Shown: positions 4,677 through 56,005 of the stretch, piece after piece
Numbering within the stretch: position 1 is the first letter of the stretch
Layout: every line of letters begins with the position of its first letter
DNA from: a virus
Reading direction: 5' to 3' (one strand)
Length of the DNA stretch: 56,563 nucleotides
Virus record (IMG/VR): IMGVR_UViG_3300044639_001130
Span: 1 to 56,563 of that record
Notes under the pieces: generated by a model
Seen by the model: only the letters and a program-made list of their open reading frames with translations
The model's database searches: none
Told to the model about the DNA's origin: nothing
Position numbers and translations under genes: made by a program

Positions 4677-6908
4677 ATGCAATTTCCATCGCAAACCGTT
4701 CCCCAATATAAAAAAGATAAAGCTTGGTGTCAATTACACTTAGATTACGGTCAAAGAATACTGAGAAACAGTAACTTAGCCAAGCAAGAAATGGATAACC
4801 ATTACAAGCAATTTAATGGGGTTAAGCGAGCGGGAAGTTATAAGTATTTAATTAACACACATGGTAAAGAAAATCGTGCTCAATTTATATCTTATAGAGC
4901 TTGTACTACAAAAATTCAACTAATGGTTGGAGAGTTTTTAGTAAGACCATTAAGTGCAACTGTTTATACAAACAATAGAGATGCTAAATTCCAAAAGATG
5001 TCTCAGTTTGAATTTATGACAGGGGCAATGGTTGCTAAAAAAGAGATACAAGAATTAAAGGATAAAGCAGGTGTAGACATAATGGAAGGCGCTCCGATTC
5101 CTGAAGATGAGAATGACCCAATTTGGGAGAACTTATCCACAAAGGATAAGGAAGAATTAATTATGCAATCTATTCTTAATGAGCAAATACCTGCATTAGA
5201 TTTAAAACAAAAGTTTGCGGATAACTTATTAGACTGCGCTATTACTTCTGTTATGTTTGGTAAAATAGAACGTAACGAAAAAGGAGATACAGATTATATA
5301 AACATTGACCCTAGAGATGCTATCTACGAAGAAATTAAAGGAGACCCGCATTTAGAGAAAAGTCCTATTAAAGGATGTCGTCAATGGTTGCCTTTGCATG
5401 AAATATTAAGACGTTACCAATTAGATAGAAAACAAATTGAAACAGTTGAATCTATTGGTAAAAACCCAACAACTTATTACTCAGATAGCATTAAAGATGG
5501 TCCAAGTGGAACAGGATTAATCGCAGAGGTTATTCATGTTGAATGGATTTCTGTTATACCTGAGTATTACCAAAAGATTAAAAAGACTATAACTCAATTA
5601 GCCTTAGACCCAACTGACGAGTATATCTATATTGCTTTAGATACAGACAGATATGAGATGAATAAAGAGCATTGGGATAATAAGCCAGGGATAGAGATAA
5701 TTGCTAAATACAGAGAAGATTTATGGGAAGCGACTCGTATCGGCGGATTAAAAGAACTAGATGTTAATTGCAGACGAGTTCAATTCCAAATGAGAAAGGT
5801 AGATAATCCTGCTTATATCTTAAGTAGCTCTTACGTTGGATATTTATTCAACACTGTAGATGGTAGACGTATTTCTTTATTCCAACAAATGGAGAATTGG
5901 AGTAATATATTTGACATTACTATGTATCAGATATTAAAAGATATTAATAAGTTCAAAGGAAAGATATTAGGATTTAACTTAGCCGGCTTACCTGCAAAAT
6001 CATCTGTTAAAGCATTGCAGTACGATATGGTTAATGATGGATTTGTAACTTATGACACATCAGCAAGTGGTAACTTTCATGGTAGAGACGTATCTTTAAA
6101 TAACATATTACAAGTAGAAGATTTAGGGTTAAGTAGCTCATTTGGTCCATTGATTCAGTTCAAAGACCATATCTTGCAAATGATGGACAGAATGACTGGA
6201 ATCTCTGAAAATAGAGAAGGTCAAATTGCGGCATCTGCAACAGCTACAAACACCAATTCTGCTATACAAGCATCAAGAACTATTACAGAGCCATTCTTCT
6301 ACGGAGTTTACTCTTTTATAGACAAGACTTTAATGAGAATTATAGAGTCAACTAAAATCACTTGGGCATTCTATAAGATAGAGGAAGGAGAGCAAATATT
6401 AGGTATTGATAAATCTAAATTCATGCGTGTAACTCAAGAATTAGGATATAAAGATTACGGTGTACATTTACAAGATTCTGGTAAGTATTCAGAAGTTAAG
6501 CGTTACATGGAAAACTTAATGGCTAACTCTTTAAATGCAAAAGAAATACGTCCGGAAGATGCTTTAGCATTTGCTTGGTCTGAAACTGCTATTGAACAAA
6601 AACAAATATTAAAAGAAGGCTGGAATAAGGTTAAAGAAATGCAATCTCAATCTCAACAAATGCAACAACAGTCTCAAATGCAAATGCAAGAGCAACAAAT
6701 TCAAATGCAGCAACAACAACTTCAACAGCAATTAGAAATATCTAATGCGGATAGAGAAGATAGGCAAGCTGCTAGAATAGAGGAGATTATTGCACAAGGA
6801 GAAGTTGATATTAAAGTGAATGCAGCAAAGGCAGGAAATGATGTTACTAAAATGAATTTCCAAGCTCAAACAGAAAATCTTAATAATCAAAATCAAATGT
6901 TAGAATAA
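4677..6908 (+). CDS. portal protein
   Basis: The portal forms the dodecameric ring at the capsid vertex through which DNA enters and leaves. This 743-residue protein follows TerL directly and precedes a scaffold-like and a capsid gene. It has a long alpha-rich body with a C-terminal Gln/Met-rich coiled coil, about residues 655-690. Such a barrel-like extension is common in large portals of podoviruses, including crAss-like phages, where portals are of similar size. The identification rests on order, length and the C-terminal coil, not on a diagnostic motif. Confidence 0.8.
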   Translation: MQFPSQTVPQYKKDKAWCQLHLDYGQRILRNSNLAKQEMDNHYKQFNGVKRAGSYKYLINTHGKENRAQFISYRACTTKIQLMVGEFLVRPLSATVYTNNRDAKFQKMSQFEFMTGAMVAKKEIQELKDKAGVDIMEGAPIPEDENDPIWENLSTKDKEELIMQSILNEQIPALDLKQKFADNLLDCAITSVMFGKIERNEKGDTDYINIDPRDAIYEEIKGDPHLEKSPIKGCRQWLPLHEILRRYQLDRKQIETVESIGKNPTTYYSDSIKDGPSGTGLIAEVIHVEWISVIPEYYQKIKKTITQLALDPTDEYIYIALDTDRYEMNKEHWDNKPGIEIIAKYREDLWEATRIGGLKELDVNCRRVQFQMRKVDNPAYILSSSYVGYLFNTVDGRRISLFQQMENWSNIFDITMYQILKDINKFKGKILGFNLAGLPAKSSVKALQYDMVNDGFVTYDTSASGNFHGRDVSLNNILQVEDLGLSSSFGPLIQFKDHILQMMDRMTGISENREGQIAASATATNTNSAIQASRTITEPFFYGVYSFIDKTLMRIIESTKITWAFYKIEEGEQILGIDKSKFMRVTQELGYKDYGVHLQDSGKYSEVKRYMENLMANSLNAKEIRPEDALAFAWSETAIEQKQILKEGWNKVKEMQSQSQQMQQQSQMQMQEQQIQMQQQQLQQQLEISNADREDRQAARIEEIIAQGEVDIKVNAAKAGNDVTKMNFQAQTENLNNQNQMLE

Positions 6909-6914
6909 TAATTC

Positions 6915-6922
6915 TATATTTG
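6915..6922 (+). promoter_or_regulatory. Bacteroidota -7 box before scaffold gene
   Basis: TATATTTG fits TAnnTTTG and lies about 20 bases before the scaffold ATG. No clear TTG -33 element is seen at the expected spacing, so promoter activity is uncertain. Confidence 0.4.
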
Positions 6923-6942
6923 TGTAATTAAAATTATAAACC

Positions 6943-8097
6943 ATGACAGAAGAAACAACAGCGGTGCAAAATAATATGATTCGAGAGGAATCATCTGCTC
7001 CGGCTCGCGCAAACTTCGAGTTACTATCGGATGATACGTTTTTAAATTCAAACTACAACGAAGCAACAGAAGAAGCCAAGCCTACGGAAACAGTTAAAGA
7101 AGATGCTTCAAAAGATGAAGTTAAAGATTTAGGACTAGAGCCTGAAGTTAAAGTAGAAGAAGCTGCAAAGCCTACCGAAGCTAAAGAAGAATCTACGACT
7201 GAAACTGAAACTTTAGATTTAGAACCTTTATCTTTAGAGGATACTAACTCAAATGAGCCTGAAGATGGTAGTTGGGCTTATATAGCTAAACTAGATGGTT
7301 TAGAGTTAAAAGAAGATACTTTAGAAGCTTACAAAGAAGCTATAACAGCTCCTTATGAAGAAAAGCTAAGAGAGGTTGAATCTTTAACTACAGAGAAGTT
7401 AATATCTAAGTTTGAGGACCCTAATGTAAAGATGGTTTTTCAATTAGCAGAAGCAGGATTAACATTTGATGAGATTGTAGCTCCTTTCACTAAGATAAAT
7501 GAATTTAAGGCTATGCCGGCATTAGACTTAGTAAGAAAGAACTTAGAATTAACTCATACTGATTGGACTCCTGACATGATAGATACAGAGATGGAAATCT
7601 TAACTGCTGTAGACGGAAGATTAGAACACGAACACAAGAAGATAATTGTTGAGTTGGATAACATCCAAAGAGAAGAACAACATCGTAGAGAAGATATAGT
7701 AAATAATTATAAAGTAAATTCTGAAAAATATGCCATACAAGAGCGCACTCAGAAGTTAGAATCCACATCAAAAGCTTTGAATAATATGTCAGAGTTTATG
7801 GGTTCTCCTTTAACAAGTGAGGTTAAGAATGGATTAACGGAGAGAATGAACAATGGAAAGTACGACCAAATGTTTGATGACCCGACAAAAAGAGCAGAAT
7901 TTATTGCATATATAGAGTTAGGTCAAAAAGCTCAGAAAAATTTAGAAGCTAAAAGCTATGCTAAAGGGAGACTTGAAATAACTAAAAAACTGCATAACAC
8001 ACCGCCACTAACAAGTGGAGGAGCAGGTAAATCAGTAACAACAAACGCGGAAGGTAATTTTGAAAGATTGAAAGGAGACACGTATCTTAATGGTTAA
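6943..8097 (+). CDS. putative scaffolding protein
   Basis: This 384-residue protein lies between portal and capsid genes, the usual place for a scaffold. It has a disordered acidic Glu/Pro/Thr-rich stretch (about residues 40-115) and then a mostly helical charged body. The two termini carry the same short motif: NFELLSDDTFLN at 24-35 and NFERLKGDTYLN at 372-383. Repeated terminal motifs of this kind could be capsid- or portal-binding tails, which is an inference. No protease motif is visible. Scaffolds co-assemble with the coat and leave or are degraded before DNA filling. Confidence 0.65.
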   Translation: MTEETTAVQNNMIREESSAPARANFELLSDDTFLNSNYNEATEEAKPTETVKEDASKDEVKDLGLEPEVKVEEAAKPTEAKEESTTETETLDLEPLSLEDTNSNEPEDGSWAYIAKLDGLELKEDTLEAYKEAITAPYEEKLREVESLTTEKLISKFEDPNVKMVFQLAEAGLTFDEIVAPFTKINEFKAMPALDLVRKNLELTHTDWTPDMIDTEMEILTAVDGRLEHEHKKIIVELDNIQREEQHRREDIVNNYKVNSEKYAIQERTQKLESTSKALNNMSEFMGSPLTSEVKNGLTERMNNGKYDQMFDDPTKRAEFIAYIELGQKAQKNLEAKSYAKGRLEITKKLHNTPPLTSGGAGKSVTTNAEGNFERLKGDTYLNG

Positions 8098-47163: not shown

Positions 47164-47442
47164 TTATTTTAAATTAAATACTTTGTCTAAATTAATCTGA
47201 ATATTCCATTGTAAATCTGAAACATCAACTTTTTTAGGTTCCTTTATTAATAACTCCTTTGCTTTTGATTTACTTAAATGTTTCCTATTAATTAACCATG
47301 CTTTAGCAGTTTCATTAAAACCAATATGAACTGGCAAATTAGTAATATTAAATAACTCCTTTTGTCTAAATGCTAAAGTTTGATTTTCAAATACAAAGTA
47401 ATTTGAGTATGTTATAAAATATTCATTGTTTGGCTTTTCCAT
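47164..47442 (-). CDS. hypothetical protein (92 aa)
   Basis: This soluble protein has beta strands with several aromatic residues in the first half and then a Lys-rich helix (KHLSKSKAKELLIKEPKK). It lies directly downstream of the cassette-like array on the minus strand, whose last site is degenerate. It might be the last, now fixed, cassette, but no clear second terminal repeat is visible after it. Confidence 0.6.
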   Translation of the reverse strand: MEKPNNEYFITYSNYFVFENQTLAFRQKELFNITNLPVHIGFNETAKAWLINRKHLSKSKAKELLIKEPKKVDVSDLQWNIQINLDKVFNLK

Positions 47443-47498
47443 ATTGATTTTATTGGTGATTTAAAGGTTAGTTGGTTTTAGCAAGTAGTTACCAGCAA

Positions 47499-47711
47499 TT
47501 AGACATCGAACCCTTCCAACATTAATTTGTTGTGTAATATCTCGAGCCTTTCTCTCGGACTAAATAGGATATTGAAATCTTCCCACTTAATTCCACAAAT
47601 TAATGCTGATACTTCTTTAAGTCCCATTTTCTGATTAAGCGATAACGATTTATACCAACTAACTGCTGGTAACAGTACCTTTAAGCCATTTTTTATTTCT
47701 TTGTTATTCAT
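47499..47711 (-). CDS. cassette gene, hypothetical (70 aa)
   Basis: This small helical protein has a conserved look (LLPAVSWYKSLSLNQKMGLKEVSA and onward) but no family is recognised. Its cassette starts with GTTTACCA, and the complement GTTACCA lies right after its stop, with a one-base difference. The downstream palindrome is degenerate, so this is the distal cassette of the array. Confidence 0.65.
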   Translation of the reverse strand: MNNKEIKNGLKVLLPAVSWYKSLSLNQKMGLKEVSALICGIKWEDFNILFSPRERLEILHNKLMLEGFDV

Positions 47712-47742
47712 ATTCGTTAATTATTGTTTTAAATTAATATTT

Positions 47743-47775
47743 GGTAAACGGCTCAAAGCTGCAAAGCGTTAGTTT
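47743..47775 (-). repeat. short attC-like site
   Basis: On the minus strand it reads AAACTAAC, then an 18-base centre with two GCTTTG repeats, then GTTTACC. It follows the YopX gene and precedes the 47711 gene. It is much shorter than the other sites and lacks a long stem. Confidence 0.5.
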
Positions 47776-47797
47776 CAATAAAATAAACCATTGATGT

Positions 47798-48187
47798 TTA
47801 CTTTTCTAATGTTAATATAGGTTGATAAATATTACCTTTTACCTCACAATTTCCATTAATATATGAAGATGTTTGCATATCAAAAGATGTGTAAAATGGA
47901 GTTTTTCTATTAAAGTCATTTTGATGCGTATTTATTGCAAAACCTCCTGCAACCCTAAATACATTATACATAAAGTTTTTATTTTTATCTTCTAAAATAT
48001 CACCTTCATAAATTTCAACTCCATTTTTGTCCTTTAACCCTATAAGTTGCATAGGCTCTGAGTTATGAATATCATTTGATTCATTAAACCATTGATAGCC
48101 TTTCCTTACAGGTTTGCCATCATTTATATTAACATCGCATCGCATTTCCTTACCATTCCATGCCCTAAACTTAATTTCTCTGTTCAT
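47798..48187 (-). CDS. YopX family protein, cassette gene
   Basis: This 129-residue protein matches the YopX family of phages (REIKFRAWNGKEM at 3-15, MQLIGLKDKNGVEIYEGDIL at 46-65, then a beta-rich part and a GNCEVKGNIYQP ending). YopX proteins are common small phage and prophage proteins of unknown role. Its cassette starts GTTAGTTT-ACAGTAAAATAAACC and ends with the complement of almost the same 22 bases 11 bases after its stop, the longest terminal repeat in the array. Confidence 0.85.
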   Translation of the reverse strand: MNREIKFRAWNGKEMRCDVNINDGKPVRKGYQWFNESNDIHNSEPMQLIGLKDKNGVEIYEGDILEDKNKNFMYNVFRVAGGFAINTHQNDFNRKTPFYTSFDMQTSSYINGNCEVKGNIYQPILTLEK

Positions 48188-48224
48188 ATTTTTTTATTTT
48201 AATTTATTTGGTTTATTTTACTGT

Positions 48225-48306
48225 AAACTAACAAAATATTCAATCAATTTGGCTATTACATAATTGCTCAGACAGCCAAACAGATTAAATATCCAGCCGT
48301 TATGGG
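48225..48306 (-). repeat. attC-like site (82 bp)
   Basis: On the minus strand: CCCATAAC, 6 bases, ATATTTAATC, TG, TTTGGCT, a 19-base centre, AGCCAAA, TT, GATTGAATAT, 3 bases, GTTAGTTT. The arms pair as 10 and 7 bp with one G-T. The spacers are asymmetric (6 versus 3). It starts four bases after the stop of the 48538 gene. Confidence 0.7.
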
Positions 48307-48310
48307 AAAT

Positions 48311-48538
48311 TCAATTTTTTACCCACCGCACCAGTGAATACCACAAACGCTTGAAGTTGTCTGTAATATCAGTTCTACGTTCTTTTTTACAATAGGCATT
48401 TAAGCCATCTTCAATTCCACTAAATTTGCCTGTATGTTCAAGCGATTTGTTAAATGTGATTTCATAGGTTGCTGAACCTGTTTCGCTGTAACCAATAAAT
48501 TTGTGCATTACAACTCTGTACTCTTTATCTTTTTTCAT
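48311..48538 (-). CDS. cassette gene, hypothetical (75 aa)
   Basis: This basic small protein has a beta-strand pair (YRVVMHKFIGYSETGSATYEI) and a helix. It has no signal peptide. It lies between attC-like sites, with a leader of about 43 bases after GTTATGGG. Its first nine bases GTTATGGGA are complementary to the sequence right after its stop. Function unknown. Confidence 0.65.
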   Translation of the reverse strand: MKKDKEYRVVMHKFIGYSETGSATYEITFNKSLEHTGKFSGIEDGLNAYCKKERRTDITDNFKRLWYSLVRWVKN

Positions 48539-48580
48539 TTTGAAATTTGTTTACGCCAACCCACAAAAAAAATGAACTAT

Positions 48581-48676
48581 CCCATAACACGGGTTTGGCA
48601 AAATGCCGCAGGACAGTTAGTGCTAAAAATTAAGTTTCGAGTAGCGGCACTTCGCCAAGCCCGAAACCGTTATAGG
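48581..48676 (-). repeat. attC-like site (96 bp)
   Basis: On the minus strand: CCTATAAC, GGTTT, CGGGCTTGGC, GAAG, TGCCGC, a 35-base centre, GCGGCA, TTTT, GCCAAACCCG, T, GTTATGGG. The arms pair over 9 and 6 bp with one unpaired position each, and spacers differ (5 versus 1). This is close to a textbook attC architecture. Confidence 0.75.
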
Positions 48677-48687
48677 TAAGTTGTGTA

Positions 48688-48912
48688 TCATTTAGAAACA
48701 TTTTTGATAAGCGTATAATAGTGTTTTGTTATTCCGCTAAAATCAGTTTTCAATTCTAAATTATTTGCGAATCTTTCTTTAGCTGAATTATATTGTTTTT
48801 CAGTAATTCTAATATTACCAACATTATAACCAAAGTGCTTTATGAAAAAAGTAATTATTAAACTTTCGCCATTATTTATTCTTTCATCTATTTCTTTTTG
48901 TGTAATTCTCAT
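48688..48912 (-). CDS. cassette gene, hypothetical (74 aa)
   Basis: This basic small protein (MRITQKEIDERINNGESLIITFF and onward, with KHFGYNVGNIRITEKQYNSAK) is soluble and of unknown family. The cassette starts GTTATAGGTAGGTTGT, and the complement GTTATAGGTAAGTTGT follows its stop after three bases: 15 of 16 bases match. Confidence 0.65.
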   Translation of the reverse strand: MRITQKEIDERINNGESLIITFFIKHFGYNVGNIRITEKQYNSAKERFANNLELKTDFSGITKHYYTLIKNVSK

Positions 48913-48960
48913 AATTAGTTTTTTTATATTGTGTATTAATTAAAAATTCGTTACAACCTA

Positions 48961-49026
48961 CCTATAACCCAACCCTTACCCAACTCGGTCGACACCTTCG
49001 CTGGGTAAGGCTTCATCCGTTATGTG
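48961..49026 (-). repeat. attC-like site (66 bp)
   Basis: On the minus strand: CACATAAC, GGATGAAG, CCTTACCCA, a 19-base centre, TGGGTAAGG, GTTGG, GTTATAGG. The 9-bp arms pair perfectly, with spacers of 8 and 5. It begins two bases after the stop of the 49236 gene. Confidence 0.75.
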
Positions 49027-49029
49027 CCA

Positions 49030-49236
49030 TTATAAGTGACCACCCTCCACAAACTTGACTAAATGGTCGGCACACCATTGAGCCTTATTTAGTGGGTCTA
49101 ATGATAGATAGTTTTTCATCCAAGCATCTTTAGTCATTCCATGCTTCATAACGGCTTTCACTTGCTCAAATCTATCATCTGTAAATAAGTCAAGTTTGCC
49201 TTGTTCCTTTAATATCTTCTTTGTTTCTACTTTCAT
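49030..49236 (-). CDS. cassette gene, hypothetical (68 aa)
   Basis: The open frame extends further upstream to 49287, but that part is the attC-like site itself. The ATG at 49236 gives MKVETKKILKEQGKLDLFTD and onward, and is preferred. Soluble, helical, no family. The first ten cassette bases GTTATGTGCC are complementary to the ten just after its stop, and matching continues weakly into the stop region. Confidence 0.6.
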   Translation of the reverse strand: MKVETKKILKEQGKLDLFTDDRFEQVKAVMKHGMTKDAWMKNYLSLDPLNKAQWCADHLVKFVEGGHL

Positions 49237-49253
49237 CTTGTGAATAATAACGG

Positions 49254-49350
49254 CACATAACAAGGGTTTTGCGTAATAGCCCTTCAAATGTCGTGGTTAA
49301 TTTTAAGTTTCTACTAAGGGCTACTACGCAAAGCCCCGATACGTTATAAG
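49254..49350 (-). repeat. attC-like site with long stem (97 bp)
   Basis: On the minus strand: CTTATAAC, GTATC, then GGGG-C-TTTGCGTAgTAGCCCTT, a 32-base centre, AGGGCTAtTACGCAAAaCCC, TT, GTTATGTG. About 20 base pairs with two mismatched positions make it the strongest palindrome of the array. Confidence 0.75.
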
Positions 49351-49383
49351 CAAGTGGGCGAAAATGCCCACCAGACTTATAAC
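49343..49383 (-). repeat. gene-less mini-cassette
   Basis: GTTATAAG-4-GTGGGC-6-GCCCAC-3-CTTATAAC read on the minus strand is a 41-base near-perfect palindrome between two attC-like sites, with no room for a gene. It behaves as a cassette reduced to its terminal repeats. Confidence 0.6.
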
Positions 49384-49429
49384 ACGGGCTAAGAAGAAAG
49401 TTTTTAAAAAGCCCACGCACGGTTTATGC
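49376..49429 (-). repeat. attC-like site overlapping a stop codon
   Basis: On the minus strand: GCATAAAC overlapping the stop of the 49657 gene, then CCGTGCGT, GGGCT, a spacer containing TTTTTAAAAAC, AGCCC, GTG, GTTATAAG. The stem is short (5-8 bp). Its central sequence is repeated in inverted orientation at 49686. Confidence 0.5.
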
Positions 49430-49657
49430 TTCTGAATCAAATTCAAGTGCAATAAAGTTTTGTGTTTCTGGAAATACTTCCTGCAACTCTTTTAATTCTT
49501 CTTCTGTATGCACTTGGAACACTCCAATTGATTTATATACGCCTGATGAACTTGGTTCGTCAGAGGCATCTTCCTCATTCTTTTTTGTGTCAAAAATGCA
49601 AACCTCCACATCCAATGGAAATTTTTGTAACTGCTTAATCAATTGTTCGTTTTTCAT
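49424..49657 (-). CDS. cassette gene, acidic hypothetical (77 aa)
   Basis: This acidic soluble protein starts MKNEQLIKQLQKFPLDVEV, a pattern seen in small phage and plasmid proteins. It is followed by an Asp/Glu/Ser-rich linker and a helix. It is flanked by inverted copies of CGGGCTAAGA-n-GTTTTTAAAAA. Its stop lies inside the downstream attC-like site. Function unknown. Confidence 0.65.
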   Translation of the reverse strand: MKNEQLIKQLQKFPLDVEVCIFDTKKNEEDASDEPSSSGVYKSIGVFQVHTEEELKELQEVFPETQNFIALEFDSEA

Positions 49658-49685
49658 TTTGTATTTATTTAGTTGTTAATAATTC

Positions 49686-49732
49686 CTACGCTATTTTTTA
49701 AAAACCTTCTCTTAGCCCGAAAACGTTACCAC
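49686..49732 (-). repeat. truncated attC-like site with inverted copy
   Basis: On the minus strand: GTGGTAAC, GTTTT, CGGGCTAAGAGAAGG, TTTTTAAAAAATAGC. The first arm of the next cassette follows directly, so this site looks partly deleted. It repeats, in inverted orientation, the centre of the site at 49376. Confidence 0.45.
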
Positions 49733-49751
49733 TCATTTTGCTTTAAATATT

Positions 49752-49979
49752 CTAAAGAAGTTCAAGTTTTTGTTTAACTGATTTCCAATAATTTATAGAT
49801 AATTCAATATCTTCTCCAAAAGTCCCACCATCTCCCAAAATTGGTAATGATGGACTTGAATTAATTATTTCATTTACTGTTATTATCGAATGAATTATAG
49901 CGTTTCGGTAACCATCACATTCTACACATCTCATTTGATAACTTTCAATCAAGTCATTTGCTTTCTCTTTTGGTGTCAT
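49752..49979 (-). CDS. cassette gene, hypothetical (75 aa)
   Basis: This acidic small protein (KEKANDLIESYQMRCVECDG near the start, with C-x2-C) has no recognised domain. The cassette begins GTTACCAC-ACGTTTTG, and the complement GTTACCAC-TCATTTTG lies 19 bases after the stop: 13 of 16 bases match. Its ATG lies about 50 bases into the cassette. Confidence 0.65.
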   Translation of the reverse strand: MTPKEKANDLIESYQMRCVECDGYRNAIIHSIITVNEIINSSPSLPILGDGGTFGEDIELSINYWKSVKQKLELL

Positions 49980-50031
49980 ATTTTTTTTGTTTTAATTTTC
50001 TATTAATGTTTAATTTAAGTACTCAAAACGT

Positions 50032-50108
50032 GTGGTAACATCACCTAATAAACAGGCGGACATCTACTATATTTCCACCACGCGTCTATTAGCTGCAAAA
50101 CGTTAATC
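50032..50108 (-). repeat. attC-like site (77 bp), first of the array
   Basis: On the minus strand: GATTAAC, GTTTTGCAG, CTAATAGACGCGTGG, a 21-base centre, CCGCCTGTTTATTAG, GTGAT, GTTACCAC. The 15-base arms pair with three G-T pairs and one mismatch, and the spacers are 9 versus 5. Confidence 0.65.
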
Positions 50109-50109
50109 A

Positions 50110-50388
50110 TTAATATTCTTTAATTTCTCCTGTTTTATTATTAGTTAATTTAACTGATTTTAAATCATTTTTACCATCATCAACCCAAATAAATGTACTT
50201 TGCATAATTTCCCAATTCTCTTTCCCTTTGGTTTGTTCAGGATGCGCTGCTTTAACTTTATCTAACATATCAACCGAATAATGTAACCATTGCAATAAGT
50301 CAATTGAAAATCTTTCAAAGTTTTCTTTATTCACTACATTTATTAATTTCTCAAATGTATTAATCTCGTATTTTTTAGCTTTTTTCAT
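50110..50388 (-). CDS. hypothetical protein (92 aa), array border
   Basis: This helical soluble protein (KKAKKYEINTFEKLINVVNK and onward) ends just before the first attC-like site. No matching start repeat is found upstream, so whether it forms a cassette or belongs to the fixed operon is unclear. It shares a 24-base gap with the 62-residue gene before it. No family is recognised. Confidence 0.6.
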   Translation of the reverse strand: MKKAKKYEINTFEKLINVVNKENFERFSIDLLQWLHYSVDMLDKVKAAHPEQTKGKENWEIMQSTFIWVDDGKNDLKSVKLTNNKTGEIKEY

Positions 50389-50412: not shown

Positions 50413-50601
50413 TTACAATGCGTTATAATAACATTCAGCTTCTTCTTTCGTTTTAAATTGCGCAATTGTTATTACCGTTCCCCTTTTTAAAACTCTTACA
50501 ATCCATTTATCTGCCAATTCAGCATAACTAACTCCAACTTTTTTGTTTTTACACATACCTTTTTTTTTGGAATAAGAGTTTCCGTAATTTATCCCTGCCA
50601 T
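50413..50601 (-). CDS. small basic protein (62 aa)
   Basis: This basic small protein has a conserved-looking C-terminus (DKWIVRVLKRGTVITIAQF then KTKEEAECYYNAL), a beta-hairpin plus helix pattern seen in small AP2-like or phage DNA-binding modules. The preceding stop is three bases upstream. Role unknown. Confidence 0.6.
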   Translation of the reverse strand: MAGINYGNSYSKKKGMCKNKKVGVSYAELADKWIVRVLKRGTVITIAQFKTKEEAECYYNAL

Positions 50602-50604
50602 CAG

Positions 50605-51186
50605 TTAAGCCGTTACTATTATATCTTTAAAGAACCTAACTCCATTAACTGTTCCTTCTTTTAAGAACTCTTTATTAGTAGACATATATTCTTTTACTTT
50701 AGCTTCATCTATACATAACCATTCTCTAGGTATTTGAGATATATCAGCAACTTCAAATTTCCATGTATGCCTTAATCTTGTAGTCTTGTTAGCTTCCGCC
50801 TCTAACTCTATCTGAGCAGCATCTTCTTCTGTTTTAGCCAACATTAATTTTTTAGCTATTTCTTCTTGCTTTTTAATCTCAAAGCTTTTAATCTGATTTT
50901 TAGCATGAACTAAAGCTGTATTTAAAGCTCCTGTTAGATTCTTGGCAGTAGAGTCTATTAATCTACCTTCGTCAATAGATGGTTGCTTTAATTCAACTCT
51001 TTTAGCCTCTACAGCCTTTACTAATCCATTTGCTTTAGATAAGTTCTGCTGAGCAATAGATAGGCTAGTTTCGCAAATAACTTTAATCTGTAAGCAGTTG
51101 TTAGCTATTGTGTCTAATTCATCTTTTAAAGCAGATAATCCTACTAAGGATGCTGCTAATTTCGGGTTTACTAATTGATTTTCCAT
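50605..51186 (-). CDS. coiled-coil phage protein, recombination-associated type
   Basis: This 193-residue protein is a long helical coiled coil (about 1-135) followed by a small C-terminal domain (HTWKFEVADISQIPREWL and ...GVRFFKDI). This coil plus 'IPREWL...GVRFF' tail is a pattern of phage early proteins often found beside SSB, RecT or helicase genes. The exact role is unknown. It is first after the promoter/operator at 51234. Its downstream neighbours are the array genes, so it is the entry point to the array transcript. Confidence 0.65.
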   Translation of the reverse strand: MENQLVNPKLAASLVGLSALKDELDTIANNCLQIKVICETSLSIAQQNLSKANGLVKAVEAKRVELKQPSIDEGRLIDSTAKNLTGALNTALVHAKNQIKSFEIKKQEEIAKKLMLAKTEEDAAQIELEAEANKTTRLRHTWKFEVADISQIPREWLCIDEAKVKEYMSTNKEFLKEGTVNGVRFFKDIIVTA

Positions 51187-51584: not shown

Positions 51585-52929
51585 CTTCTGTATTTGTTTC
51601 TCCTTTAGTATAATTTTCAAAAGCACTATATTTACCCATAAATCTTGCATATACAGCCTTTGTTTCTCCGTATCTATTCTTAGCTACATTAATCTCACAA
51701 AGTCCTCTTAAATCGGTTCCATCAACGTCCTTTGGGTCTTTCTCGTAGTAGTCAGGGCGATATAATAACCAAACTTGTACTGCATTAGCCTCAATGGCTC
51801 CAGAGTCTTTTAAATCAGACATTTTAGGACGCCTACCTTCTTTACTAGCCTCCCTAGATAATTGAGATAACTCTATTACACAAAGATTATATTTCTTATG
51901 AAGCTCTTGTAAACCTTTTACTCTTAAAGACATTTGCCTTTCTTCCGAAATTCCTTTATATTCCTCGTAAGTATTATTCATTAACTGTAAGTAGTCTATC
52001 ATTACAACTATTGTTTTACTCATAGGTATAGTTCTTCTCATTTTTCTAATCTTAGTTTCCATATACTGCCAAGTTATACCTGCCGTATCATCTATTACTA
52101 AGTTACTCTTGAGTTTACTTCTAAGCCTTTGTATCTTCACAACATCATCATCCATTACATTACCGCTTCTTATTTGCCAAGAGTTAATATTTAAGCAGTT
52201 AGCCCAAAGATTCTTCATTAATTGAGTTCCCGGCATCTCTAAAGAAAATACTACTAATGGAGCATCTGATTCTACGGCTACATTCTTCATAATGTTAACC
52301 ATTAAGCTAGACTTACCTGCGCCGGGAGGAGCGCCAACAACAATAATCTCTTGCTTTAAGCCACAAGTAATCTTATCTAACTCATCTAATCCTGTTTTGT
52401 AGCCGATAATCTCCTTCTTGTTATTCTGAGCATCTTCAAACTCTTTGTAGGTCTCATCGAATAAATCTGTTATACTTTTCTCTACAGATAGGTTATTCTT
52501 AATAGAATCTAAATCATTAAATATATCTTTCATTCTACCTACATTCTCATCTATATCTCCGTTGTGAGTAAACAGTTGATTGTAAGAGGAGTGAATAGTA
52601 GGTTTTAGCAATCTTCGGGAGTACATATCAAACACTACGCTCATGTGTTCGGATATGTTTTGTTTTATCTTATAATCTACCGCATGAAAACTACCGAGTA
52701 TTAACTTAATATCTTCTTTAGCGTAACCAAGTTTAAACAGCTTATCTCTAAGTAAGAATACATCTGTTTTAACCTTATTACTATGGTTATCTTTTATAAT
52801 CTTAAATAGAGTTCTGTTAGATGGTTCTTGCCATATATCCTCAAAAGCATAATTCTCGCAGGAATGGAATAAATCTGTATCTTCTGCATAAGAGGATAAT
52901 ATAGCTAATTCTAAATCTTTGTATTTCAT
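51574..52929 (-). CDS. dnaB: DnaB-type replicative helicase
   Basis: The 451-residue protein has an N-terminal helical domain (1-150), a linker, and a RecA-like C-terminal domain. Visible are Walker A, GAPPGAGKS (199-207), the strand VVFSLEMPG, Walker B with D in MIDYLQLM, the motif ELSQLSREA, and the DLKDSGAIEANAVQVWLLYR region. Late motifs such as NVAKNRYGETKAVYARF are also present. It unwinds DNA at the phage fork. It is followed by the 51584 gene and preceded by a PPLLEEV-type protein that may load it. Confidence 0.9.
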   Translation of the reverse strand: MKYKDLELAILSSYAEDTDLFHSCENYAFEDIWQEPSNRTLFKIIKDNHSNKVKTDVFLLRDKLFKLGYAKEDIKLILGSFHAVDYKIKQNISEHMSVVFDMYSRRLLKPTIHSSYNQLFTHNGDIDENVGRMKDIFNDLDSIKNNLSVEKSITDLFDETYKEFEDAQNNKKEIIGYKTGLDELDKITCGLKQEIIVVGAPPGAGKSSLMVNIMKNVAVESDAPLVVFSLEMPGTQLMKNLWANCLNINSWQIRSGNVMDDDVVKIQRLRSKLKSNLVIDDTAGITWQYMETKIRKMRRTIPMSKTIVVMIDYLQLMNNTYEEYKGISEERQMSLRVKGLQELHKKYNLCVIELSQLSREASKEGRRPKMSDLKDSGAIEANAVQVWLLYRPDYYEKDPKDVDGTDLRGLCEINVAKNRYGETKAVYARFMGKYSAFENYTKGETNTEDAF

Positions 52930-52939
52930 ATTTTACGTT

Positions 52940-53314
52940 TTATTGAAAAAAAGATGACTTTAGTTTTTCTTCTTCTTTAATCTTAAACTCTGGCTTCATC
53001 CAAACGCTTAACATCTTTCCTTTCCAATTAAGAACTTGTTTACCGCTACCATCTTTCCAATTCATAGTAGTATAATAATCAAATGCTCTCTCCGCCACCG
53101 CTTGTTGGTATCCCTTTTCCTTGAAGTAAGATTTAACTTCCTCTAATAAAGGAGGATTAAAGGATTTGCTTGCCGTTTTAGCCATTTTCTTTGGAGTAAA
53201 GTAATCTTTTAAGCAATTATATAAATCATCTCTTAAATCAAGCTTAATGACTTTATTATCATCTATAAACTTTAGAGTTTTTCCTTTATCAGAGTCAGTT
53301 ATTTCTAATTTCAT
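52940..53314 (-). CDS. putative helicase loader or replication accessory protein
   Basis: This 124-residue protein has FNPPLLEEVKSYFKEKGYQ (about 52-70) followed by WKDGSGKQVLNWKGKMLSVW. This PP-x3-EV and NWK-x-W pattern is common in the C-termini of phage and mobile-element replication initiators. It lies 10 bases upstream of the helicase gene, so the two are probably partners in helicase loading. This function is inferred, and the N-terminus is unassigned. Confidence 0.5.
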   Translation of the reverse strand: MKLEITDSDKGKTLKFIDDNKVIKLDLRDDLYNCLKDYFTPKKMAKTASKSFNPPLLEEVKSYFKEKGYQQAVAERAFDYYTTMNWKDGSGKQVLNWKGKMLSVWMKPEFKIKEEEKLKSSFFQ

Positions 53315-53786: not shown

Positions 53787-55325
53787 TTATTTTCTATTTT
53801 TCCATTCTATTGTAGAGTATTGACCTCTAGTAGCCCCTTCATTAATATCGTATCCTTTATTTTTAAGATAATCTACTTGTACCTTATTCGCAGGAAGTTC
53901 AGATATAATCTCGTTACACATAGCTTTAGTGTAAACTGTATTTTTAATATCGTACCCTAATCCCTCTATCCAAGTTAATTGTGCTTGTGTTGCAGGTTCT
54001 CTCATTCTAATAGAATCACTTAATACCGGCTTAGGTAGTTTTAATAAATTTACCTTTTCGTCTTTGCCCAATGTGTGTTCTATTTTTGCTAATCTAGCAT
54101 TTCTTTCGTCTAATAATAAATTCTTTTTCTCTTGAGTAGTAAAACATCTTTCTTCAATAGGCTTCTTTTTATCAAGTTCCCAAGCGTTAATTAAATTATG
54201 TCTATTAGTTACATCAACAACATCTAAAATAATAGCATTTTGACCAAACTTTTCTGCAAATGTAGGTGTTTTTAATCTAGCTGTTCTTCCAATGCTTTGT
54301 AAATATTTAGTTAGAGACTTAGTTGGACATGCCATAATCGCACAACCTGTATCAATGTGGTCAAATCCAGCTACTAAAATATTTACGTTAGTAATTACTT
54401 CTATCTTACCTTCTTTAAATTTAGATATATTCTCACTTCTTTCAGGCGTTAATTCTTCATTACTACTTACGGCTACTGCATTTATACCATTCGTTTGGAA
54501 TACTTCCGCTAAATCTACAGCGTGTTGTATGCTTACACAAAAGGCTATGGTTTGTCTACCTACCGCATATTCTTTCCACTTATCAACTATTAATTGATTT
54601 CTTGCTAATGTATTTACTTCGTTTGATAAATCTCCTTGGTTTAAATCGCCGGCAGTTGTTTTAACCTTATCTAAATCAACATTAGTTTTTATTCTAATAG
54701 CGTCTAATTCAGCGCACCAATTATCCTTAATACCTTCCCCTAGTCCGTAGTCAAATGATATAGAATCAAATATATCTCCTAGCATCATGCCATCTGCCCT
54801 TGTTGGAGTTGCTGTACATCCTAATAATAACTTAGGTTTAAAGTGCTCTATAACGCTATATGCCGATTTGCTCCCGAAAAGGTGTGCTTCGTCACATATA
54901 ATACAATCGTAATAATCGCTTGGCAACTTACTTAAACGTCTCACTACGGTCATAACGGAACCCATAACAACATTTGCATCAGGCTTAAATATATCTCCTT
55001 TTATGCAGCCCATACTAAAGCCTTTCATGGCAAATCTCGATGAATCATCCTTAACATAATCTAAAAAACCTACTTCTTTAACATGATTATAAAATTGTTC
55101 ATCAAACTTATCTGCTATAAAAGCCATAGCTGATTGCGATACGAGCTCCTCTTGAAAACTCAGCCATAATACGCGTTTGAACCCCATTTTTTCAAGTAGC
55201 TTTATTAGAATATATGTTTTTCCTGCGCCGGTAAAAAGGCAAATTAATTGAGATAACACTCCTTTATCATAATTACTCATTACGGCATCGTGGCATTTCT
55301 CTTGATATGGTCTAAGTTTTTTCAT
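53787..55325 (-). CDS. SF2 DEAH-type helicase
   Basis: This 512-residue protein has a complete set of SF2 motifs: Q-motif region LRPYQEKCHD, Walker A FTGAGKT (31-37), LWLSFQEEL, CDEAHLFG (motif II), GCTATPTRADG (motif III), GFDH in the second lobe, and QSIGRTARLKT (motif VI). The family unwinds or remodels branched DNA, like T4 UvsW or RecG, or restriction-type helicases. A C-terminal tail (about 400-512) is of unknown function. Its start overlaps the homing endonuclease stop by one base. Confidence 0.88.
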   Translation of the reverse strand: MKKLRPYQEKCHDAVMSNYDKGVLSQLICLFTGAGKTYILIKLLEKMGFKRVLWLSFQEELVSQSAMAFIADKFDEQFYNHVKEVGFLDYVKDDSSRFAMKGFSMGCIKGDIFKPDANVVMGSVMTVVRRLSKLPSDYYDCIICDEAHLFGSKSAYSVIEHFKPKLLLGCTATPTRADGMMLGDIFDSISFDYGLGEGIKDNWCAELDAIRIKTNVDLDKVKTTAGDLNQGDLSNEVNTLARNQLIVDKWKEYAVGRQTIAFCVSIQHAVDLAEVFQTNGINAVAVSSNEELTPERSENISKFKEGKIEVITNVNILVAGFDHIDTGCAIMACPTKSLTKYLQSIGRTARLKTPTFAEKFGQNAIILDVVDVTNRHNLINAWELDKKKPIEERCFTTQEKKNLLLDERNARLAKIEHTLGKDEKVNLLKLPKPVLSDSIRMREPATQAQLTWIEGLGYDIKNTVYTKAMCNEIISELPANKVQVDYLKNKGYDINEGATRGQYSTIEWKNRK

Positions 55326-56005
55326 TAAGCTGCTATAAATGATGTTTTATTCTTTTTATAATTGTTTAAGTATTTGTAAATAGTGCCTTCTTTATATTTG
55401 ACTTGAGAATCAGTTGCCAACTTAACGGTTTCGTAAAATATACCAGTCTCTACATTTAACACTAGTTTTGCCTTTGGGTTATTTCCGCCTAAATATTTCC
55501 CTTCTTTTTTTTGAGACATTATCAGTCTAGTTGCTAAATCGTGTTTCTTTTTATAAAATCCATTATCAACTCCTTTTAAACCTATTACCTTATATCCACT
55601 AGCGTATCTTTTATTCATTTGGATTCTGGCTTTTTCCTTTGTCTCATCTGAAACAACTCTATTTTTAGCAATTTCACTAATCTTCTTTTTTGATTCTTCG
55701 CTCCATTTATAACCTCTATTACTAGATGCGGTTGGAGATAAATTGCAACATTTTTTATTAGAAATATGAAAATTAATATATCCTTGTTCTATCTCATCTA
55801 GCTTATCGTATTCGCAAAGCTCTATTATTATAAATTCTGGCAATCCGTATTTATCAGAAATTCTTTGAATAACCTTATTGCAATGTTTTTGTTTTCTAAT
55901 CTTGGTAAAATGTTGAACTTTTCTTTCTTTTAAATTTACGGACTGACCATAATAATAATATCCAGAATCTTTCCATTCTAATTTATAAATACCTGATTGT
56001 TTCAT
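55325..56005 (-). CDS. GIY-YIG homing endonuclease
   Basis: This 226-residue protein starts with SGIYKLEWKDSGYYYYGQSV (GIY and YYG signature, about 4-23), the catalytic R28 in LKERKVQHF, and a Glu in LDEIEQGYI. It then has NUMOD3-type repeats (GYKWSEESKKKISEIAKNR) and a NUMOD1-like end (VLNVETGIFYETVKLATDS). This is the typical domain order of freestanding homing endonucleases. It overlaps the helicase start by one base, so it sits in the operon without disturbing it. It cuts an allele lacking the gene and promotes its own spread. Confidence 0.85.
   Translation of the reverse strand: MKQSGIYKLEWKDSGYYYYGQSVNLKERKVQHFTKIRKQKHCNKVIQRISDKYGLPEFIIIELCEYDKLDEIEQGYINFHISNKKCCNLSPTASSNRGYKWSEESKKKISEIAKNRVVSDETKEKARIQMNKRYASGYKVIGLKGVDNGFYKKKHDLATRLIMSQKKEGKYLGGNNPKAKLVLNVETGIFYETVKLATDSQVKYKEGTIYKYLNNYKKNKTSFIAA

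Follow-up and report, generated by a model that had tools for sequence, protein, structure and literature searches.

A 56.6-kb phage record from IMG/VR (IMGVR_UViG_3300044639_001130, whose full 56,563 nucleotides are called the window here) carries, on the minus strand from position 50104 to 47488, an array of seven cassette units and seven attC-like hairpins. Judged from this sequence and those of related phages, the region is very probably an array of gene cassettes from an integron-like system of the phages' own; the window copy lacks a recombinase and is probably acted on in trans. The preliminary description of this DNA had placed an integron-like cassette array at 47743-50108. The array is indeed there, but it extends further, to an attI-like end at 47491-47479.

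Paired cassette ends and cassette-precise exchange

What marks out a cassette in this DNA? In the direction of the genes, every hairpin opens with TAAC-G and closes with GTTA. It had been proposed that the outer boxes pair across one palindrome. This one-site view was tried and gave no signal, with 19 of 42 positions matched between the boxes flanking the same palindrome in the window and 2.44 of 6 in the family at large. The true partner of a box lies at the other end of its own cassette. Start box and own end box match at 5, 5, 6, 6, 6, 5, and 6 of 6 positions in cassettes 1 to 7, or 39 of 42 in total, and in an exact permutation only one of the 5040 orderings of the ends, the observed one, attains this figure. 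The pairing is the decisive signal for the window array. It is also the hallmark of integrons, in which a cassette goes in as a circle: its two ends, once adjoined in a single attC, pair with each other rather than with the boxes that they now face.

Stems alone lift this one window only modestly above chance, since three sites pass a strict stem threshold and whole-window Markov shuffles average 1.35 (maximum 3). In the wider family, sites were sought upstream of recombinases by AAC-GTT stem pairing alone, with the boxes unused, and 143 were found, whereas Markov shuffles of that sequence gave 5. At adjacent sites in this set, a start box matches its own end box at 4.90 of 6 positions, versus 2.51 when permuted (the largest of 2000 permutations gave 2.91). 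These unbiased, stem-only figures replace an earlier own-box distribution that was biased by the chaining rule. Simple statistics on stems and boxes were enough to separate the cases, and the attC-like clusters were judged by tests of stem, spacer, and box.

How do related phages differ from the window? A protein query from the window flank led to 12 viral loci (loci are designated by L and a number). L001 is 94-98% identical to the window in most flanking proteins, and it has no array block at the corresponding place: the homolog of the conserved gene at 50605-51186 is followed directly by that of 46941. Its cassettes are different from those of the window and lie at another place, one of them with a DNA methyltransferase. 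The arrays of L005 and L002 terminate at a tyrosine recombinase, and in L010 a homolog of the window's 92-amino-acid (aa) gene 47164 stands in the recombinase position. Queries with the recombinase returned 30 and then 73 viral loci. In all, 52 distinct recombinase loci (at least 50% identity) were examined, nearly all of them phage, with a few contigs of metagenome-assembled genomes (MAGs) included.

Exchange is seen between L018 and L014, in which 6856 bp starting at the TAAC of the attI-like site agree with 99.985% identity. Identity ends one base further left, and the arrays immediately left of TAAC consist of entirely different cassettes, so that both break at one and the same AAC, past which a single further base is shared. 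The same TAAC is joined to four different last cassettes in L014, L016, L017, and L018. L017 and L018 also have four 100% identical units in common, each with its own left hairpin, in a different order and with different neighbors. Two cassettes of the window itself recur elsewhere. Unit 48671-48299 (site 5 plus body 5) is also found in L270 and L271, where either edge lies at AAC and the neighbors differ among all three, and cassette body 7 is found in L017, L018, L264, and L269 next to other neighbors, bounded by GTTACCAGC and GCTGGTAAC. Cassette 7 was also sought in 396 bacterial genomes, where a search that had no positive control gave no match. By these comparisons, cassettes are gained, lost, and reordered with cassette precision. 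The earlier proposal of a cassette array without integrase in a phage is thereby supported: the differences between relatives involve single cassettes, the order of genes varies, and the breaks that were expected at G|TT lie exactly at AAC, its complement.

The attI-like site and the recombinase of related phages

In the relatives, a conserved attI-like site, TAAC-TAYTATATGTA, lies about 60 nt upstream of the start of the recombinase gene, and the recombinase adjoins the array, with this site, in 49 loci. Sequence to the left of TAAC is variable and sequence to the right is conserved, and in the L018/L014 comparison the site is the exact boundary of exchange. No integrase had been noticed in the window, and none is there, but the related phages carry what is probably the cognate enzyme, which is not an IntI. 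It is a 277-aa tyrosine recombinase with both integrase domains (PF00589 and PF13495). Its profile scores, about 198 bits with the XerA-like NF040815, 175 with XerD, and 164 with IntI, are all under the curated cut-offs: 160-178 against 265 bits for IntI, 175 of 329.6 for XerD, and 162 of 335 for XerC. The I2 region (residues 181-242 of IntI4) is unmatched in the phage enzyme, and the insert is confined to IntI in the multiple alignment. In a tree of 72 rows, which supports the separation of clades and not the order of deeper branches, the phage recombinases group together in a single clade (support 100), distinct both from IntI, itself a clade (99), and from XerC/D. Foldseek matched the structures 5hxy and 4a8e in the PDB; the AlphaFold model is no better than fair (pLDDT 81, pTM 0.59, with a poor C terminus), and the ranking is given little weight. 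Judged by its domain content, this recombinase would be missed by tools that require an IntI-type integrase, such as IntegronFinder.

Is the enzyme also found in cells? Among bacterial and archaeal genomes, a close copy occurs in four MAG contigs only, all others being at most 41% identical, and one of the four shares an 832-aa terminase frame with a viral record. With so few close cellular copies, and such a terminase frame on one of them, the family is essentially viral. The recombinase and cassettes are also present on L046 (LCET01000016.1), a contig assigned by binning to Candidatus Woesebacteria, and it is either a misbinned phage contig or a sign of wider host range. L050, L053, L055, L061, and similar Bacteroidota loci encode chromosomal tyrosine recombinases of about 380-390 aa that are 32-37% identical to the phage enzyme, several of them near contig ends. 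In L050, three attC-like sites with matching cassette ends lie about 3.7 kb from the recombinase. These chromosomal loci are possibly the cellular counterpart of the phage system.

A mechanism can be proposed from these parts. The mobile unit would consist of an attC-like hairpin and, after it, a small gene with complementary ends of the form GTTAxxx...xxxTAAC that, in the circularized unit, would together make one complete attC-like site. The linked recombinase, which we infer to perform the exchange, would insert the circle at attI, the joint falling on the AAC/GTT triplet, and would presumably act on a folded single strand. Recombination between sites within the array would excise units or reorder them. 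Since all the genes run with the phage operon and face the recombinase, they would be readable from the phage's own transcription. The window copy would have lost its recombinase, the 92-aa gene now being found there, and would depend on supply in trans, for example from a co-infecting relative.

The array in the window and its cargo

The array is set between the conserved minus-strand phage genes 50605-51186 and 46941-47156, and it is made up of small genes and hairpins on the same strand. The preliminary description was right about the small minus-strand genes, the YopX gene, and the imperfect palindromes, and the asymmetric spacers that it noticed are real. As measured, the left spacer (AAC to stem) is longer than the right one (stem to GTT) in all seven sites. 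Its picture of genes alternating with palindromes holds for most of the array, with the exception of gene 49424-49657, and its gene cassettes correspond to seven units, one of which has no gene.

Site 1 (50037-50104) has its R'' AAC at 50104-50102 and its R' GTT at 50039-50037, with spacers of 6/2 and a core of 62 nt. It is followed by cassette body 1 (GTTACCAC...GTGGTAAC, 49725-50039), whose gene at 49752-49979 belongs to phrog_21441, a family of unknown function. Site 2 (49381-49727; spacers 5/1) has the strongest stem and a 341-nt core whose loop holds the complete small gene 49424-49657; in other phages as well, genes start within hairpin loops. Next comes the gene-less cassette of 41 nt (GTTATAAG...CTTATAAC, 49343-49383). 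Site 3 (49259-49345; stem score 19.4; spacers 6/2) precedes body 3 (GTTATGTGCC...GGCACATAAC, 49019-49261) with its gene at 49030-49236. Site 4 (48966-49021; spacers 5/2) precedes body 4 (GTTATAGGTA...TACCTATAAC, 48669-48968; gene 48688-48912). The core of site 4 also lies between other genes in L005 and L017. In L005 (4768-4820) the same core separates genes entirely different from those of the window, so hairpins and gene bodies also become separated from each other. Site 5 (48586-48671; stem score 18.2; spacers 5/1) leads into body 5 (GTTATGGGA...TCCCATAAC, 48299-48588; gene 48311-48538), and site 6 (48230-48301; spacers 6/3) into body 6 (GTTAGTTT...AAACTAAC, 47768-48232), which carries the YopX gene at 47798-48187 (Pfam PF09643, 4.6e-14). 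At site 7 (47671-47770; spacers 9/5), the loop holds the start of gene 47499-47711, the gene of body 7 (GTTACCAGCA...TGCTGGTAAC, 47488-47673).

The attI-like array end of the window (TAACTACTTGCTA, 47479-47491, minus strand) has the same form as those of L010, L041, and L001, the last reading TAACTACTTACTA. The arrays of all four end in TAACTACTYRCTA. No PF00589 protein was found in the records of the window, L001, L010, and L041, which may be incomplete. Gene 47164 or its homolog is the next gene after the array end in three of the four (the window, L010, and L041). Four different last cassettes at the TAACTACTYRCTA-type end suggest that this end is also used, presumably in trans. The 92-aa gene, which has no family match, occupies the recombinase position of related phages (47164-47442 on the minus strand of the window; 6150-6430 in L010; 115-391 in L041), is preceded by TAACTACTYGCTA, and may belong to another kind of platform, a second one. 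In L001, the recombinase position at the array end is held by an endonuclease-like gene that reads like GIY-YIG (6521-7013). The usual array place of relatives (4785-7016 in L001) is empty in the window, between 52940 and 51574 (at 52929-52940, ACGTAA and then AATATG), and the window array with gene 47164 sits about 2.4 kb from it.

To briefly describe the surroundings, the gene left of the array (phrog_26841, 50110-50388, minus strand) has no cassette boxes that could be found. A short remnant at 50413-50601 resembles part of an HNH endonuclease, and a homing-endonuclease-like gene (phrog_314) lies at 55325-56005. The terminase and portal proteins of the window have distant matches to crAss-like and Flavobacterium phages. 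A DNA search of phage records returned only YopX fragments and a 73-bp match to a Riemerella phage, an Rfam scan of the whole window gave no match, and a tRNA scan of it found none.

What do the cassettes carry? Most of the 141 cassette proteins have no family. Those that can be recognized are mostly orphan DNA methyltransferases (seven N6/N4, six C5, and three Dam) and other anti-restriction genes, the other named proteins being four PAPS-reductase-like proteins, two of a TET-associated glycosyltransferase family, two YopX proteins, and one Lar-type restriction alleviation protein. By inference, this cargo fits counter-defense, and its recognizable part suggests that phages shuffle counter-defense genes by means of the cassette system.

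Relation to integrons and competing explanations

How close is the system to an integron? The yardstick was a set of 22 arrays beside IntI genes that score above the family cut-off. This sample was drawn as the "phylum" of a Bacteroidota genome, and its arrays look gammaproteobacterial in attC type, with their kinship unstated; they serve as a reference set only and carry no claim on Bacteroidota. On the gene-sense strand, spacers are 3/6 in the IntI arrays and 5/2 in the phage arrays (120:16, or 137:1 in the chained set), and the phage arrangement equals that of a classical attC seen from the opposite strand (6/2, 25:3). The phage genes face the recombinase (134:2), and those of the IntI arrays point away from intI (86:15). 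Identical units keep their 5' hairpin in L017 and L018, so the attC does not lie 3' to the gene. When the arms are aligned with each other in a simple way, bulges fall on the left arm in 112 of 120 IntI-type sites and on the right arm in 13; the 138 phage sites have them on the left in 49, on the right in 38, and not at all in 66. The chained phage set, taken with a finder of the same kind as for the IntI set, gives 44, 33, and 75 among 142. The R' box is GTTA or GTTG in 97% of 148 cassettes and GTTRRRY in 6.8%. By these measures, the attC-like and attI-like sites are placed as in an integron, while the gene is flipped within its cassette and the regular extrahelical base is absent. The layout of integron attC sites, each right after a stop codon, that had been described for the window thus stands as to the attC-like sites but not as to gene orientation, and the system, so judged, is not a classical integron.

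With the IntI integrons of bacteria and archaea it shares tandem small cassettes, attC-like hairpins of the same spacer asymmetry, complementary cassette ends, an attI at the recombinase, and cassette-precise exchange. It differs from them in a recombinase that is outside the IntI clade and has no I2, in the lack of one-sided extrahelical bases, in an R' of GTTA plus a variable remainder, and in genes that are inverted and face the recombinase. Xer-type recombinases (XerA, XerC, and XerD) are the best profile and structure matches, are of similar length, and also lack I2, but the phage enzyme is in a clade separate from XerC and XerD, and what it is linked to is no dif site but an attI-like site with cassette arrays. 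In the reverse integron of Treponema denticola, integrase and cassette genes likewise have the same direction; by that paper's description it is the integrase that is reversed there (PMC4909258), whereas here the cassette genes are flipped and the recombinase has the classical orientation to attI. No description of such a phage system was found in the open-access literature. The nearest work (PMC9892861) reports phage CALINs (clusters of attC sites lacking integron integrases), for instance in Polaribacter phage P12002L, that likewise have phage-borne attC-like sites and cassettes without IntI and DNA methyltransferase cargo. That work regarded them as parts of integrons that came from bacteria and tested them with IntI1, whereas in the present case close relatives have a linked recombinase of their own and an attI-like site, a uniform gene direction, and arrays of up to 13 sites.

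Could the window then be a plain CALIN that came from a host integron, its ordinary cassettes moved by a host IntI while the phage recombinase has another job, such as lysogeny or dimer resolution? IntI1 does recombine the attC sites of several virulent phages (PMC9892861), and the unpaired-spacer asymmetry of the phage sites is that of a classical attC on the opposite strand. We nevertheless consider this explanation unlikely. It does not account for a conserved attI-like site that is the exact exchange boundary beside the phage's own recombinase, and the one-sided bulges typical of IntI sites, the outward gene direction, and the GTTRRRY box (in only 7% of cassettes) are missing from or rare in the phage arrays. 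Mosaicism is a feature of phage early regions, hairpins between genes are common, and some hairpin cores recur, so homologous or illegitimate recombination between phages, with hairpins serving as short homology or as transcription terminators, might also create such diversity. Breaks that share one AAC and a single base past it, and hairpins whose sequences differ between sites and offer little homology, make this very improbable, and it gives no reason for the complementary cassette ends. As for a fixed early-gene operon with decorative hairpins and no mobile units, all genes do lie on one strand in an early module, but a close relative (L001) is without the whole block here and has other cassettes elsewhere, and window units occur in other phages with other neighbors; together with the L018/L014 exchange, these findings already refute such an arrangement.

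A phage-owned cassette system, with the window array moved in trans, remains the best explanation, and several observations weigh against it. The phage recombinase lacks I2, which known attC recombination requires (PMC7790495, PMC4792948), which leaves a different mode of action or the work of another enzyme. The window record has no tyrosine recombinase, and its attI-like end retains only the TAACTACT part and departs after it from the recombinase-linked form. Finally, old cassette pairs (body 7 in L017, L264, and L269) have a common body and different left hairpins, which means that the mobile unit is not always hairpin plus body.

Why would a system of this kind matter? I2 has been tied to the docking of extrahelical bases and to recombination of folded single strands (PMC4792948, PMC7790495). 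It is by way of I2 that integron integrases are thought to have gained the use of such substrates, and a lack of intermediates has been noted (PMC7790495). In the phage system, I2 and the one-sided extrahelical bases are absent together. Cassettes, an attI, and attC-like hairpins that have neither would make the question of origin testable. We lean toward a virus-borne branch of integrons in which a recombinase without I2 recombines attC-like hairpins that have no one-sided extrahelical bases, either as a relic of the step to folded single-stranded DNA or as an independent alternative to it, and through which phages trade anti-restriction genes. If this is true, phages would own a gene-capture platform and would not merely be carriers of host integron fragments.

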